NCBI RefSeq assembly: GCF_022458985.1
Contig: NC_061770.1
Coordinates: 34,267,599 to 34,331,598, forward strand
DNA: 64,000 nt
Direction: 5' to 3'
DNA from: Mugil cephalus
Lineage: Eukaryota; Chordata; Actinopteri; Mugiliformes; Mugilidae
Positions 7,441-35,400 of this stretch are shown here, in pieces. Numbering within the stretch: position 1 is the first letter of the stretch; every line of letters starts with the position of its first letter. The position numbers and the translations under genes were made by a program. The notes under the pieces are model-generated. The model saw only the letters and a list, made by a program, of their open reading frames with translations, had not been told where the DNA came from and did no database searches.

Positions 7441-8730
7441 ATCTTCTAGGTGGCGTCCATGTTGTTATTATCACATGACCAGTGACTCTAGATTGTGAGC
7501 TCCGGCTTGAAAGATCTGATAGTTATCGTCCATCACCTACACATTTGCAGTTTGCTGTGATTTTGCTACATTACACCACACATTCGGATTGACTCTCAAA
7601 AAAGTGCCATCTCTGCTGACACCGCCCGGCTCCACCACAGGTCACACTTCCCCCAAATACCTCCTGCTATGGAACTCCTAAAAGGTCACAACAAACACTT
7701 TCCCTTCCGTCTTTTCCAAAGCTACCAAACAATTGGCACAAAACACATCACAGAGAGGAGGTGTCGTGATGTGTCACGTAACAACTGCCTCTTTCCTCCA
7801 CAGCTGGCACTGCCTGTTTCATCCATTCACAGCATCTTCTAATCTTAGTAATGACAGGGTCCTTAGCAGGCAGCAGTTTCAAAAGAAAGATGAGCCATCG
7901 GGAAGGGGCTGGGGGAGGCTTTTGGTTGAAAAAAAAAACAAAAAACACACAACGAAGCATAGAGAATAGAGTTAAAAAGCTCCCAAAAACTGTAATCCCT
8001 GACTGCTGCAGAGGTGGACGCTCATGTTACAGCAGAAGAGAAGGTTTGTGCCAAGAAGAGTTGAAATGCACCAGTGCTAATAATGGTCGTGTTAATGCCT
8101 GGAACCAGAGTATAAGAGGAAAGACTTTACACAGAAGATGCAGGTATATTCAATGAGGGGGTAGCTGTACACGGTGCACATATAAATACATGTAAAAAAT
8201 AATGAGGGAAGAGGGAAGAAGGCGACATACAAGCAAACATGATACCGAGTACCAGGACAAAAGAATCCCCAGCAAAGACCAGCACACACATTCAAACATG
8301 TCCTTACCTGAACATCTGGCGCTTCTTCTTCTTCTTCTTCTACTCTACCTGCTGTGTGCACTCCTCTCTGCATTCAACACACAAATGCCTCATTGAAAGA
8401 ATCTGGTTTACTTCACACTAAAAAAACTCCACCCCTGAGAGGGTGAGATAAGAAGAGAAAAGGGGAGGACGACTTCCTCCCCGTGTTGTGCTGTGGGATC
8501 ACTGATCTGAGCAGGGAAAAAAAAAAAAAAAACTAAAGACAAAGAAGTCCGAGGTCAAAGTTGAGTCCAAAGTGTCTCGTGGTTTGTCATTACTGAAAAG
8601 AAGTGGACAGAATAAAAGGCTGAACGTGGGCTAATGTAAGGAAACAGCTAGAGCATTCTACGATAGATTATAGTAAATACAAACTTTGACTTTTCACAGG
8701 ACACCTCAAAAATCTATCATATAAATGATG

Positions 8731-9041
8731 TACACCAATCAGGCATAACATTATGACCGCCTTCCTAATATTGTTTAGGTCTCCAGAACAGTTGTGACTC
8801 CCCAGAGAAGGCACATGGATCTTCTGAGGGTGTCCTGAATGTTTTGTTAGTGGGGGGGTCCTTGGGTCCTGTGAGTTGAGGGGAGGGGCCTCAATGGTGG
8901 ATCATCCCACACATACTTTTTTTTTTTTTGGTCTAGGTTGGTGGTACATGTCTAAGTAACATCCACATGAATGAATGCCAGGTCCAAAAGACGGTCAAAT
9001 TTACTTCTCCCATTAGTGGTCATAATGTTGTGGCTGTTAGA
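8731..9041 (-). repeat. Tc1-derived short element, copy 3 (both ends present)
   Basis: Left end TACACCAATCAGGCATAACA, right end GGTCATAATGTTGTGGCTG; these are imperfect inverted repeats of each other. About 310 bases long with no intact coding. Relative to copies 1, 2 and 4 it is reversed. Confidence 0.7.
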
Positions 9042-9825: not shown

Positions 9826-11265
9826 ATGGTCCACAGAGGGCAGCGTTTGGGCTCTTTGGACGTAACACTGGTTTTCCTCCTGGTCTGCTCCGTCACGGGC
9901 TTCCTGCTGATGGACGAACGTCGAGACGCAGAGGACGACCAGGAGCTCAACAAAGCTATTTTGGAAATGCTACACATCAAAAAAGTGTCAGCGAACCACC
10001 AGGCCAAACCGCATCCTTACATGAGGAGAATCTACCAGCATCTGGACTCACTAGAGGCGGAGGACCTCGGGAGATCGGACGGGACGCTGGTCCAGAGTTT
10101 CCGGAGCGTTGACGGTAAAGAATTGGAATTAAACTCAACTAACTGTTTTAGATCAACTTTACAGAGAACCATCAGTGTATAATCAGAAATGACTGAATGT
10201 CTTACTCTGGCGTGACCTTTCGTAGCCTTGGCAACAGGAGGAAGTCACGTGACTTTGTTATGGAGTGTAAGAGGAGGTTGGGGTGGATGGACGGGTTTAC
10301 AAAACATTGGACATAAGAGCCATAAGTTTTACACATGTCCAACCATGTCAGCTGCACTTTTACAATTGGAGTCATGAAAAATAAAGTACTTACACAGATC
10401 AGCCACAACATTATGACCACCAACAGGAGAAGTGAATAACATTAAAACCATCTTGTGACAGTTCATTGTTCTGTTAGGAAACTTTTGGACCTGATATTGA
10501 TTCATGTGGATGTTACTTAGACCAGACACCCCCCACCCTATAGCAATATCACACACACAAATGGATTAGGAACAACTAAAAACAAAACAAAACATGAAGA
10601 ACAGCACAAGGTGTTGACCTTTCTTCCAGATTCACTAGATCTTAAACTAATCAAGTATCTGTGGGATGATCCACCATAGAGGTCTCCCCAAAGACCGCCC
10701 CCTCCCCGCCACTAACAACATCACAGGACACCTTTAGAAGGTCCATGTCCATCCTCAGATCACAACTATTCTGGAGACCTACACGATATTAGGAAGGTAG
10801 TCATAATGTTATGCCTGACTGGTGCCTTTCATTCTTTGGATCATTCCAGGTCCACCTCACGCTCCCCAGGGCTGGATCTGGTTCAACGTCAGCAGCGTGA
10901 ACCCCTCCATGCTGGGAGCAGAGCTGGTTCTGTTCAGAAAGACCCTCCACCCCGATCCACTCAGCGTGACCGTCGCCCTCCACAGCGTCACTGCTTCACG
11001 GGGAACTCTCAGCGAAAGCCCTGCTCTCGAGGAGAGACAGCTGACCTTGGACCAGCGGCCCTCGTCCGGCTATGACGTGTTCGACGTGTCGGCCGTTCTG
11101 GCCGCGAAGCCTCTGGACGTGGTGGGTTTCCAGCTGCGATACACCGACGAGAGTGGGAGCCTGGTCCTCCATGAAGTGCTGACACAGAGCCTGTACTGTC
11201 TGAACAGAGGCTCTCTGAGTGAACCCTTGCTGGTGCTTTACCAGGCACACCCTCTTCAGATCTGA
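9826..11265 (+). CDS. TGF-beta/BMP-family prodomain-only secreted protein
   Basis: Two exons, 9826-10114 and 10850-11265, joined by a phase-1 intron (GACG|GTAAAG ... TTCCAG|GTCC), encode 234 residues. Residues 12-30 form a signal peptide core (LDVTLVFLLVCSVTGFLLM). Prodomain features follow: ELNKAILEMLHIKK, HPYMRRIYQHLDS (the usual PxYMxxLY position), DGTLVQSFRSV, GWIWFNVSSVNPSMLGAELV, GYDVFDVSAVLA and, at the end, SEPLLVLYQ. In BMP/GDF proteins this last block sits just before the furin site and mature ligand. Here the frame stops four residues after AHP, with no basic cleavage site and no cystine-knot domain. None is visible downstream on either strand. One Cys (LYCLNRG) remains outside the signal region. 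An ATTAAA lies 11 bases after the stop. The subfamily is not recognised, and function as a free prodomain is inference. It could also be a decaying ligand gene. Confidence 0.75.
10391..10822 (+). repeat. Tc1-derived short element, copy 4, filling the prodomain-gene intron
   Basis: Left end TACACAGATCAGCCACAACA; right end AGTCATAATGTTATGCCTGA. It occupies more than half of the 735-base intron and ends only about 27 bases before the 3' splice site at 10849. The former transposase strand matches the gene's strand but carries stops. Confidence 0.7.
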
Positions 11266-12240
11266 CTCTTTTTTTATTAAACCTAGTCTAATACGTTCGG
11301 TGTCGTCAACCTCTGATATGAGGTGTTTTAAGAAAAACTTCTCAAGGTACTTTGAAGGTGTCTAGATATGCAGACGATATGAAGGTTTATTTGCATTTAA
11401 GTTGTGCATGAGAGAAAACTTTAACACAAACAGTAGCTAAACGTAATCGATGAGCAGTTTAAATATGACATAAAATGTACAGTTCATAAGTCATGGGACC
11501 ATTTTAATTCCTTAATTTCCTCACATTTGTCCCCTTTAAAGACAAATCATCAGGGCCCAGCAGGGATCACGACCACATATTTTTGCAAGTAAACTATGTA
11601 TTAACTATGAAATATTGTTTTATATATATATATATTACTCTGGGATGTTTCACCTTTCATGTGTATTTCAGTATTATAGTGTGTAAAATATTGTAATCAC
11701 ATTTGTTTGTGTGTGTTTAATTTGGTCTATTCGAGAAGAATTCATGTAGCGTGCTTAGTGTTTTAATGTGTGGTTACTGCAGTGTGTGGACTTCTTATTA
11801 AACACAGAACTAATTTTCACCAACAGGCAGATTTGTTTATACGGATAACAGATGAGAGGAGATGAGACAGGACTTTATATAAAATACAATATTAAAATAA
11901 TACAAAAAAAAAAAAATAAAAATTAAAAAAAGAAATAAAAAACAAATAAAAAACAAAAAAAAATAGTATAGGGTAAGATAATACAAACGATATAAAAGTA
12001 AATATGTTAAGGTAGAAAAAATATACACATATTGCAACCATTAAGTAGCTAACCAAAAAGTTATCATTTTTTTTAATAATAAGAAAAATTTCCTATATAT
12101 TTAAATTTGCGCAACAAGTGTATTAAAATGTTCGATATACATTTAAAAAAGAAAAAGAAAGAAACTCCTAAAGCGTGTTAAATAATCCTTGGAAACGGTG
12201 TCGCTGTTTTTTTCCCAGTACTGTTACTATGGAAAACAAC
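11266..12240. other. 3' flank of prodomain gene and A/T-rich spacer
   Basis: Possible poly(A) signals are ATTAAA at 11276-11281 and again near 11797. From about 11880 to 12160 the sequence is A-rich low complexity. No cysteine-rich frame resembling a TGF-beta mature domain was found here. I see no gene. Confidence 0.5.
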
Positions 12241-12664: not shown

Positions 12665-15600
12665 ATGTCGGGGAATCACTACAAAGGGCACGAAGTCAGC
12701 TGCTGCATCAAATACTTCATTTTTGGATTCAACATCCTGTTCTGGGTAATTTATTATTATTATTACACCCCACGCATTCCCTGTCAGGCCCGTTATCTTT
12801 CAGCTCCCACCAGTGTAATTGTGACCGTGTTATCATGCCAGCGATAAAAGCTGCAGCTCAGTGCAACAGCAGCTAATCGGCTTTTTGCAGGGAACTGACA
12901 ACTCAGCTGACATCCATCCATAACACACAACACACACACACAACGCACAGCACAACACAACTAAAAGTGTGCAGCCATTTCCTTCTGTTGCATTGAAAAG
13001 TGATGCCGATTAACGCGTGTACCTCGGTACTTTTGAGGTTCACCGGTTCGGTTCGTCTACAAGTGCAACACACATAATAATTAGCTTTTGTCCTCATTAA
13101 AAATGTGTGTTTATACATTATGACATTCGACTTTTCAGGCTTTTAATGAACAATTAAAAACAACACGATGTTCTGTACGCTCACAGCAAGTAGAGCGCCC
13201 CCTGGTGGCTGGAGGCTGCAGTAAAAGTCATAAGCTCCACCCCCTTCATGTTAGTGGGTGGGATCTTTTTTGAGATTTTTTGATTTTTTTGTGGTTATTT
13301 GACGCCAGAGAAACAGGATGTGACATCATCATGATGATGATTGTCAGCTGCCCTGATGAAATATGCATTAAAAAGAAGTGATGTCACTCTCGTTTTTGTC
13401 CATATTTAAAAAGAAAAATAAATATATGTATAAATATATTAGTCATAATTCTTCAGTGAAAATTTATAAAACTGAGATTGTATACAAAGTGGACAAATGA
13501 CAACTTAAAAGTGAAGCCAAGGCAAGTAGAGCTCCCCCTGGTGGCTGGAGGCTGCAGTACAGGGCATGAGCTCCGCCCCCTCCATGTTAGTGGGTGGGAT
13601 CTTTTTCGAGATTTTTCTTTTTTTTGTGGTTATTTGACGCCCGAGAAACAGGATGTGACATCACGATTGTATAACATGTATAAATACATTAGTCTTAATT
13701 CATCGATGAAAACCTGAACAGAAATATGGTGTCTTATACGCTCAACTTAGAATGTATAAAAAAAACATGAGCTCTTCTTAAGTAGAGCTCCCCCTGGTGG
13801 TTGGAGGCTGCAGTACAGGTCATAAGCTCCACCTCCCTCCATGTTATATTGCTGGTGCATATTGAATTTTTTTTTTTTTTTTGAGGTTATTTGATGCAGC
13901 AGAAACAGGATGTGACATCGTGATGATGACGATTGCCAGATGACAAACACACAAAACACTTATTATGTTATTACGTAATATTAGTGAGAGGGTTAGCCCA
14001 TTTCTGAAGTAGAGAACACAGGTTTACTGGAGCCAAAGTACAAGCTACGATAAGCTAGCGATAAGAAAAGCCTTAATAAATCTCCAGGGGACGACATTTT
14101 TTGCTCATTTATGATTGGATGTGGACTCGAAACGGCCGACAATGAATATTAAACGATAGGATCGAGAGAGAAAAAATTTGATTCCTAGTTAACGGTGTTG
14201 AGAAACTACTTATGACAAGTTGAAAAGTTTTTTTTCTAGCCGATATTTGGTTTGGATACAGGATGAAACTTGGTGCCCTCCAACTAGAACTGCAACAATT
14301 ATGTTCTTATTGATGAGAGAATGGAAGTTTAACGAGATGTGTCTGTTTCCAGCTGCTGGGCATGGCCTTAGTGGGCATCGGACTGTGGGCATGGAGTGAG
14401 AAGGTGAGTCCACTCAGCTACTATTAGTCATAAAACCAAGTAATACCAACCTTACTGAATGCATTTGTCCGTCCTCTCCAGGGGGTTCTGTCCAACATCT
14501 CGTCCATCACGGATCTGGGGGGTCTGGACCCGGTCTGGCTCTTCATGGTGGTGGGCGGGGTCATGTTCATCCTGGGCTTCGCCGGATGCATCGGGGCGCT
14601 GAGGGAAAACACGTTCCTGCTCAAGTTTGTACGTCCCACGATGAGATCGGCTCAGCAGCGCGGAGAATTCACGGATGTTTTTCAAGTGTTTGTTTTTCTT
14701 CGCTGCAGTTCTCCGTGTTTCTGGGAATCATCTTCTTCCTGGAGCTGACGACGGGGGTGCTGGCGTTCGTCTTCAAGGACTGGATTAAAGACCAGCTCAA
14801 CCTGTTCATCAACAACAACATCCGGGCGTATCGGGACGACATCGACCTGCAGAACCTTATTGACTTCACTCAGGAATATGTGAGCAGGAGACGGCCGTCA
14901 CTTCCACCTCCTCCTTTTTCCAGCTTTTCCCAAAGCTTTCAGCCACATCTACTACTCTTTTAGTGTATAAATGTTGAACTTGGACCTCGGGATGTGCTGA
15001 AACTGAATAGCACCATTAGATTTCTGATGGTCCACATGTAATATTTATGTACTGATTAAAACGAAGCCAGATGTGACATGTGTTGGGACTAACTTCCCAT
15101 GAGGAAATTAGAAAAATAAGATCTTCTCCGTTTATTATTAGACTCAGACTGAGATCAGACAGTGATACATTTACTTCTCTTTTCTTTGGCAGATATCTGT
15201 AAAAATATAAAATATATCTCTGACTGATTTTAAATCTGTTGGTTCAGTCAATCACACAACAGCTCTTCACCTTTTTTAAAATAATTTTACAGTTTAGATG
15301 CTGTTAAAGTCTATGATTCAAGCTAATGCTGCTAATCTTCATGTTCAACTATCACTTTCTGCCACTCAGTGGCCGTAACCATGGAGACTTCATCCAGCTG
15401 TGACATCATGTTCATACCCTCTGTTATATTTCTATACATTTATTTTTTCAAATTTCATCATTGCTTCATTTCATTAACTGAAACCAGAAACAGTAACTGC
15501 TGTTCTTTGGTTTCACAGGAGTTATGGACATAACACCCAGACTTACACAGAAACTTGTTCATTAAATGTATTGTTCTTCTTTGCACTAAAACAAAGCTAT

Positions 15601-32400: not shown

Positions 32401-35400
32401 TAACGTAAATTAAAAGATTAGCCTTGGCTGAACCCAGATACCAATCTGATCATTTGTAAAATGCCTGGATCGACCCTGATACCGATTGGGCGTTCCCTGT
32501 TACTCTGGAATATGGAAACTCGCAAAGGGAACATTTTTAATTAATGAAATGTTACAGACCAAAAAGAATCATCAGATTAGCTGATGAAAGCAATTACTGC
32601 AAAATCTACAAAGTCATGTTACGTTAACACATTTGCATCAAAAAAGTACTCTTAAATTATTCACAGAGTCGCTGTTCCAGTAGAAATCTAATGCAGCGTA
32701 CGACACATGAAAGGAAGGGAGAGTCTCAGAGAGAGGTTTCTCCAGATTGGAGGTAAGTAGGATGTTGTCCTGGAGACTGTGTGGGAGCACTCAGAGCGCC
32801 TGGAACGGTGATAACAAAAGGTCAGGAAGAGACGCTCGGTGCTGCCGGAGCGTTTGAAAAAGAGCAGCTGAGCAGATGCAGGAGACGTCTGCCATGACTG
32901 TACAGTTAGCAGCTTGCCTGGAAAGCATGACTCTCGCTGAGGGGGATAAATCACTGTACAGTAGGCAGTGGGGGTAGAGTGACTTTTTAAGGTCGCCTGT
33001 CATGTGGTGAAAGTCAAGTCGACGCCGACTGGTCTCTGATGACGTCACCAATAAAACAGTGGAAAGCAATAAATCTATACTCTAGACCTGGATACACACA
33101 CTGAGAACAGACAGTTCATGCGCTACATACTGTGAGCTGCAGATATGTATAGCCTGTATAAAAACAGGCAGCAGCTCAGCACCATCAATTTATTAGTGCT
33201 CCACTTCCTCTGCTAGCATTAGCATTAGCATTAGACGACGTCTTTTCAAACGCATTGCAGTAGTTCTTTTTTTGTATTTCTGGACTGACATGTCACAGTA
33301 GTATGGGCTTCCTCACCTGTCTTCTAGCGGCACCCACGTTGTTTTTTGCCTAAATATCGCAATAAAATAAATGGTAATGGAAACGCCCACATTAAAAAAA
33401 AACAAAAAAACAAAAAAAAAAACTCTTTAATATTGCTAAGACGTATCGATACAGAAGTTTAGCACAAAAGTGCAATGGAAACACTTTATATCGCATTTTC
33501 CCATCACCGCTGTAACTGGGGATGACGCAGGTGGTCATGTGATCAGGTGTGATGTGGTCATTTGAAGTCCAGAATTATGGGATATTGCAAGGCGAGACTT
33601 GACAAAAGTTACAGCTCATTCGCGAAACACCTTCCGATGGAAACACGTACAAAGCACAGTTTATTTTGCAAAACAACAAGCTAAAACAGCTAATGTCAAG
33701 TGATCAGCGACTAATCGACACGGCGCTTAAATGCTGACGCCGACAAACTGACTAGTCCACTAGTCTGTACAACCCCTAGATTTTCAGTGGAATAGATATG
33801 GCTTTACCAATAAGCAAAATAATAATAATAATAATAAAATGTGTGGATAATCAATTTTTTTTTTACCATTTTCTGCAAGCGGAGCAAGAACTTCAAATAT
33901 CATTTCCTTCTTCTCGTGCTCCGTCTGCTTCTGGAAAAGACGCACCAGCTCCTCAGCAATGTTAGTGGAGGCGAACTGCTCTTTGCTGGACTCTGTAAAC
34001 ACAAGAGGTGTGATCGCATGCGTCAGAAATGCTGCACTGAAGCACCACTTTTCTGAGTGGTATCGAAGTCTAAACATTTAATCTGCGTTGTCCCAGTTCT
34101 CTAATGTAGTCTTCACTCTCTTAAGGGCGTAAGGCAAGAGACACTTCTAATGTAAGACAAAATGCAAATATGTGCAACAGAATGCAATTTCAGCTTCCAT
34201 CCTATCAGGAACAAATGTGGTTAACAATTGTGCTACATTTGTATGAAAGATTTTTTTCACTAATCCTAAAACACTCATGGACATGGAATCTTCTTCTGTC
34301 GGCCTGGCTAGAGTGTACTCACCAAGCTCGGCCAAATTCCCGAAGGCAATTAGACACATTTCTGTCAGGGCTGTGTTGTGAGAGTGGACGCCTAGCAGCT
34401 TCACCAGAGTGGGAATCACACCCATATTGATCAGCTGCGCTTGTAAGGAATCTGCAGATAATGAAAGACAGGAGAACGACAGGCGGTCGATATGTTGCTC
34501 CGAACGTAGGTCAAGTAAGTTCTGTGGAGGTCAAGAGACGTACATGTGCATGATGTCGTGGACACGCTATCCCAAAACAGTCCTAAGCCATTCGCACGGA
34601 TCTGATTTTAACAATCCAAAAGCATTTTACCTTTTAATAAGAAGCTCAGTATGTTAGAGACTTAACATTTCATTCAAGAGTGAAAACAAGGCTCAGTAAA
34701 ACTTAGAATAATGGGGGGACACAGTCTATTTTAGGTATTTTTACCATCAACTTCTGCAACACAATCTGCAAACACTGTACACAATGTATAACTTTAACTC
34801 ACAGTGAAGTCACCCAATAATAACTTGTGTCAAGGAAATTCTCTACGACAGCAGTACATGTGATGTTGTTAAAAACAGCCAAAGCAAACTGAGATTCCAG
34901 AAACTGTGAAAGGAAGAAGTGGTGGAGTTAGAAGCGCCTGGATGATATTTGTATTTTAGAGTCAACCAGATGTGAAGAATCATGAGCGAATGGATGAGCA
35001 GAGCGGAAGGAAGAAGGAAAACGATCAACTTGTGGTTTTTCTCTGCAACAAGTGGAACCGCAAACCGATGTAAATGGAAAAATGAACCTGCACTGTAAGA
35101 GGTTTTTGTGCTTGGAACCGACTGGATTGCTTCATGGTTACTTCCTTTCCAACTGGGACACTTAATGGAACTGAAGCATGAAAACGCCTGTTCTTTCTCT
35201 ACTGTGTCAGGCCTGTTGTGTTGTCGTTGTGTATACTATTGGGTTACACAGACGAACTTGATTACTTGATTAGAGCACAAAAACAGAGGAGGAAGCATTA
35301 GGGATTCTGAGAAACGCTACCAGTAAAAGAAACCATTAATCAGATTAATAAGTCAGAATAATGAATTATGATGATACAATAATGAGTAGTCATACCAACT

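Follow-up and report, generated by a model that had tools for sequence, protein, structure and literature searches.

A TGF-beta-family prodomain is as a rule synthesised as part of the same polypeptide as its ligand, and the latency-associated peptide of TGF-beta1 and the prodomains of BMP9 and BMP10 embrace the ligand non-covalently. The gene considered here, found in a 64-kb window of the Mugil cephalus genome (the whole stretch of DNA that was analysed, positions 34,267,599–34,331,598 of contig NC_061770.1, called C1 below), encodes what we are nearly certain is a real prodomain without a ligand. Three published studies provide points of comparison. The N-terminal region of the BMP-10 prodomain is described as essential for efficient complexation with the growth factor, and the processed BMP-10 prodomain–ligand complex is reported to bind fibrillin-1 (PMC11806408). 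In 24 human prodomains, conserved cysteines are reported to occupy two exposed places, one of which is a dimerising region near the prodomain C-terminus (PMC9713452). In sheep, a myostatin splice variant (MSV) that lacks the receptor-binding moiety is reported to be translated, to bind myostatin, and to block its signalling; its own 65-residue C-terminus, made alone, also bound myostatin (PMC3846833). No description of a gene encoding solely a TGF-beta-family prodomain appeared among the matches listed in the open-licence PubMed Central (PMC) literature, as judged from titles and the starts of abstracts.

MSV is the closest natural precedent found (PMC3846833). Like MSV, which binds and antagonises myostatin, the gene of M. 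cephalus yields a TGF-beta-family product without a receptor-binding moiety. MSV, however, is a splice form of a ligand-making gene and carries its own C-terminus, whereas here the gene is a separate one in which no ligand exon was found. Because the unique C-terminus of MSV bound myostatin by itself, MSV serves as an analogy and not as proof for prodomains. A second comparison is with the prodomains of TGF-beta1, BMP9, and BMP10, which a structure model of the second exon weakly resembles; those prodomains are cut from a precursor shared with the ligand, and the lone prodomain is not.

The genome searched was that of M. cephalus (GCF_022458985.1, 635 Mb in 24 contigs). Coordinates below are those of the window, and on C1 the gene lies at about 34.28 Mb. 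A 234-residue open frame is formed by two exons, 9826–10114 and 10850–11265, separated by a GT-AG intron. An initial interpretation made from the letters alone (the sequence-only reading) had proposed this gene, and its coordinates, frame, splice sites, and length of 234 residues were all confirmed. The features of the gene are as follows.

9826–10114, plus strand: exon 1, with the start codon, a signal-peptide-like N-terminus (about residues 1–28, by eye), and the N-terminal part of the prodomain; it ends in phase 1.
9934–9984, plus strand: residues 37–53, which correspond in the alignment to the N-terminal (alpha1) part of BMP prodomains.
10115–10849, plus strand: intron, GT-AG, phase 1.
10850–11265, plus strand: exon 2, with the remaining prodomain (the arm-domain part) and the stop codon.
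10885–10887, plus strand: Asn109 of an N-glycosylation sequon (NVS).
11197–11199, plus strand: Cys213, the sole cysteine beyond the signal-peptide-like region, 10 residues ahead of the LLVLY block.
11227–11241, plus strand: LLVLY block, residues 223–227, aligned with the final conserved prodomain strand.
11263–11265, plus strand: TGA stop, seven residues past the LLVLY block.
11266–11875, plus strand: AT-rich stretch in the expected place of the ligand, in which no ligand remnant was found.

The alpha1 helix label for residues 37–53 is assigned by homology. The sequon at the Asn109 column is also present in 8 of 13 paralogues.

The start ATG is well placed for initiation (A at −3, G at +4). 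The upstream frame closes after eight sense codons, and a hydrophobic stretch at about residues 13–28, judged by eye, is a putative signal peptide. The G+C content (GC) is 0.55 in exon 1, 0.61 in exon 2, 0.41 in the intron, and 0.287 in the 935 bases past the stop; at third codon positions it is 0.71 and 0.74 in the two exons; for the second exon of 10 paralogues the range is 0.62–0.91. Of the six reading frames, the proposed one has the highest codon score in each exon (0.397 in exon 1 and 0.578 in exon 2, with an antisense frame next at 0.317 and 0.432). Among the 337 stop-free stretches of at least 60 codons in the window, the exon 2 frame comes second. This evidence is supportive but not overwhelming, because base shuffling leaves the two exons open in 297 and 356 of 20000 trials, respectively, and an antisense stretch of exon 2 is fifth among the same 337. 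An ATTAAA hexamer lies at 11276–11281, 11 bases past the stop; as a poly(A) signal, it would imply a very short 3′ untranslated region.

That the ligand is missing emerges from several searches. A ligand-domain model built from 23 domains of the same genome gave no convincing match among 2833 six-frame fragments of the window, its best match (E 0.46, antisense, 14213–14413) falling inside a tetraspanin-like gene and outside the gap region. Genome-wide there are at least 61 matches to PF00019, and among the matches listed, the nearest on C1 are at 51.10 Mb and 11.22 Mb, 16.8 and 23 Mb away. With no ligand in the window and none listed closer than 16.8 Mb on the contig, the claim that the gene encodes only the prodomain is supported. 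The sole RXXR sequence of the furin type is at residue 4, with none after the prodomain, and the three frames past the stop all meet stops within the first 240 bases and contain no ligand sequence.

Several further possibilities were considered and rejected. A repeat insertion at the stop codon was rejected, as the first 610 bases past it had no further match reported in the genome; the A-rich stretch beyond those 610 bases has 41 other genome matches. A recent copy of an existing ligand gene was dismissed after the protein, searched against the genome at E values up to 10, matched only the gene's own two exons; the search let 3 candidates through, missed the known paralogues too, and therefore excludes close copies, not diverged ones. 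Nor does a ligand-bearing partner sit beside the two closest TSPAN5 paralogues (C2:14.63 Mb and C5:17.19 Mb), where the nearest listed PF00019 matches are more than 10 Mb and 1.9 Mb away.

The data come from a single assembly, and the ligand part might exist but have been lost or misplaced in it. We give this explanation only a small chance. The window is without any N, and base errors cannot restore the ligand, as no downstream frame has recognisable ligand sequence. Nor can any of the three modelled GDF5/6/7-type ligands be the missing half, as each is in frame with the prodomain of its own gene.

By sequence comparison, the gene is a divergent member of the BMP/GDF-type prodomains, its homology weak but real. 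The Pfam model TGFb_propeptide, which the sequence-only reading had named as a check, matches residues 31–197 at E 4.5e-4, but the score of 20.4 bits is under the curated cut-off of 25.8, and a genome-wide search with this model at E ≤ 1e-3 does not list the gene. The genuine gdf3 gene (C12:21.50 Mb) is likewise unlisted. When the exon 2 pieces of four paralogues from the same genome were used as a yardstick, three passed (105.6, 41.9, and 37.8 bits) and gdf3 was short at 22.7 bits, despite having a normal ligand. Because gdf3, which bears a ligand, also falls short, the Pfam shortfall does not disqualify the prodomain-only gene.

Models built from the genome's own prodomains are more telling. 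A model of 13 prodomains, of BMP2/4/16, GDF5/6/7, GDF2/BMP10, GDF3, and nodal types (types assigned by eye according to the ligand domain), scores the protein at 32.1 bits, compared with 7.8 bits for the best among 2000 shuffles of the protein; left-out paralogues scored from 24.1 (gdf3) to 173.1 bits against the remaining prodomains. With a 10-prodomain model of the same kind, exon 2 tops the 2833 window fragments at E 9.7e-5, the next being at E 2.3. The assignment to a TGF-beta-family prodomain is upheld by both results. Defining a conserved column as one with the same residue class in at least 75% of paralogues, 38 of 52 are kept; of the 14 missed, four are gaps, and the gaps coincide with the basic (K/R) positions where the paralogues have their cleavage region. 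Column retention is 73%, within the leave-one-out range of 66–94% for the 13 paralogues. The proposed lack of any decay therefore holds for stops and splice sites but not for the 14 conserved columns that are changed or gapped, and the conserved tryptophans were misjudged: neither W105 nor W107 is the conserved one of the family, whose column in the 'WexFdV' motif reads Y here.

Foldseek placed latent TGF-beta1 (two chains) and pro-myostatin (two entries) at ranks 1–4 for the exon 2 model, with E values of 0.06–0.10. This model was built without relatives and is poor (predicted local distance difference test, pLDDT, 56), and the structure matches are suggestive only. A sequence search of the PDB with the protein gave nothing useful. 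When viral contigs were scanned for similar DNA, 12 pattern matches came up, none of which was confirmed.

The position of the intron speaks to descent as well. All 14 paralogues measured have a phase-1 donor just past the stretch that aligns with 'TVRSF', at 25 nt in 11 of them and at 31 nt in the three of GDF5/6/7 type; these donors were picked by eye among several GTs, without complementary DNA, in 14 of 18 regions (L041 and L048–L050 were left out). The prodomain-only gene has its phase-1 donor 28 nt into the motif 'LVQSF', at most one codon from the paralogues' site. The shared phase and near-identical site argue independently that the gene descends from one of BMP/GDF/nodal type. The same exon in each of the 13 full paralogue models goes on into a basic cleavage region and at least the first part of the ligand.

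These observations bear on whether the protein belongs to the TGF-beta family at all. A chance frame or an unrelated secreted protein would fit the score under the Pfam cut-off and the absence from the genome-wide propeptide search. Such an origin is nevertheless highly improbable in view of the 32.1 bits against 7.8 in shuffles, the conserved intron phase and place, the 38 conserved columns kept, and the equal absence of the genuine gdf3 from that search.

Among the ligand subgroups, the parent gene was perhaps GDF5/6/7-like, as far as sequence comparison can tell. Subgroup models score the protein at 19.1 bits for GDF5/6/7, 3.5 for BMP2/4/16, 2.2 for nodal, 1.1 for gdf3, and −2.3 for GDF2/BMP10. 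A tree places the gene next to GDF5/6/7 with support of 81/86 (not starred) on a branch of 2.16, a placement flagged as unsure. The GDF5/6/7 precursors resemble the gene in giving the best subgroup model, in being its tree neighbours, in having a phase-1 intron near the same site, and in having one further prodomain exon. They differ in possessing a cleavage site and ligand domain, and the top pairwise identity (24%) is to bmp16 instead. The intron of the prodomain-only gene also lies one codon earlier than theirs and one codon later than that of the other 11 paralogues.

A truncated gdf7 was rejected on the basis of neighbourhood. LDAH, which we take to be the usual neighbour of gdf7, has all four of its listed matches of this type at C17:2.15 Mb, whereas the gene is on C1. 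Three GDF5/6/7-type ligands were recognised by eye among the 30 translated of at least 61 listed PF00019 matches. A fourth ligand of this type (gdf7) was not seen among those 30, and the neighbourhood of the LDAH-type gene at C17:2.15 Mb contains none of the listed matches.

Is the gene at work or a relic? The ligand is normally the best conserved part of the precursor. In a substitution-only simulation with 1000 runs per level, the frame was still open in 635 runs with 0.02 changes per site, in 108 with 0.1, in 2 with 0.5, and in none with 1.0. Slow joint decay of ligand and prodomain is very unlikely, because at 0.5 or more changes per site the simulated frame hardly ever survives, and the ligand is unrecognisable. 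Two histories then fit the single genome equally in kind, an ancient loss of the ligand with the prodomain under selection and a recent clean deletion. The assertion that the gene is not a simple pseudogene is supported against slow decay but not against a recent clean deletion. The observation made in the sequence-only reading is confirmed and its interpretation partly supported.

A recent clean deletion would have removed cleavage site and ligand together, brought the prodomain up against AT-rich 3′ sequence, and left a unitary pseudogene whose frame is open for lack of time. At 0.02 neutral changes per site most simulated frames are indeed open, and sequence resembling 3′ flank begins at once past the stop (GC of 0.35, 0.35, and 0.33 in 60-nt bins from 11270), as expected at a deletion junction. 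The junction, on the other hand, is without a repeat insertion or any other reported genome match in the 610 bases past the stop, and the lineage is long and fast-evolving (branch 2.16) with its frame nonetheless open. We regard the recent pseudogene as unlikely, though as the most serious competitor. As a matter of judgement, ancient loss with selection on the prodomain is favoured with some clarity, since the frame is open despite the length of the lineage, and we lean moderately towards a working protein-coding gene.

What might such a gene do? Our proposal, which we hold tentatively and at somewhat less than even confidence, is that a former BMP/GDF-type ligand gene now encodes a secreted lone prodomain acting in trans on a BMP/GDF ligand. 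An ancestral ligand gene of this type would have lost its cleavage site and ligand, and its product would be an expressed, secreted, and glycosylatable lone prodomain that folds as an arm domain with an N-terminal helix. In trans, this prodomain would bind a BMP/GDF ligand or pro-ligand, perhaps of GDF5/6/7 or BMP2/4 type, and the bound ligand would be held, shielded, or routed to the matrix, with the prodomain serving mainly as a modest antagonist or carrier. Of this account, the anatomy of the gene, its homology to prodomains, the lost basic cleavage-site columns, and the lack of a nearby ligand are observed directly, and the further steps are inferred. Given a working gene, action through ligand binding is probable. 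The stretch matching the N-terminal region of the BMP-10 prodomain aligns in the gene with hydrophobic positions kept. By analogy, disulphide dimers through Cys213 are possible, because this cysteine remains and human prodomains are described as having conserved cysteines in a dimerising region (PMC9713452).

A working secreted protein could instead have ceased to act on TGF-beta-family ligands, with the prodomain fold kept for matrix binding or another role. Its strong divergence (top identity 24%), the loss of the family tryptophan, and the fibrillin-1 binding described for the processed BMP-10 prodomain–ligand complex (PMC11806408) are in keeping with such a role. However, the region that contacts ligands in BMP-10 aligns with its hydrophobic positions kept, and nothing indicates any specific other partner. 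A role apart from ligands thus seems improbable to us, and action on a ligand remains the preferred mode.

More far-reaching is the notion of a stable, conserved fish gene for a free BMP/GDF prodomain, a 'pseudo-precursor' that serves the ligands of other genes as antagonist, folding aid, or matrix carrier. This is possible but rather doubtful; if true, prodomain and ligand have become separate genes. A separate prodomain-only gene would allow direct study of prodomain roles in trans and would show how, in nature, a ligand gene that loses its ligand can become a secreted BMP/GDF regulator. If the gene is the product of a recent deletion, it represents ordinary gene loss.

On C1, the prodomain-only gene sits between FREM-like and TSPAN5-like genes. 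The 5′ part of the FREM-type gene, on the minus strand at 999–1292 (Frem_N, 29.8 bits), heads away from the prodomain-only gene, and its Cadherin_3 repeats are in region L051. The next gene, from 12.6 kb on the plus strand, is TSPAN5-like (Pfam Tetraspanin; named by eye). Two tetraspanins are reported to be tied to BMP signalling in Caenorhabditis elegans (PMC5261805), and the tetraspanin-like neighbour of a BMP-type prodomain gene is probably a coincidence. Farther along, Armadillo repeats resembling RAP1GDS1 by eye lie at 34147–34530 on the minus strand (Pfam Arm, 20.5 bits; cut-off 20.6), and an SLC1A-like transporter, named by eye, occupies about 51–62 kb on the plus strand. The intron of the prodomain-only gene contains one further feature.

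10400–10833, no strand assigned: interspersed repeat within the intron, not part of the gene, with an inverted copy at 8724–9036.

This repeat occupies more than half of the intron, the inverted copy ends some 0.8 kb before the start codon, and the two arms are 74–93% complementary. The repeat motif CATAACATTATGNC, with at most one mismatch, occurs 7 times in the window compared with 0.03 expected.
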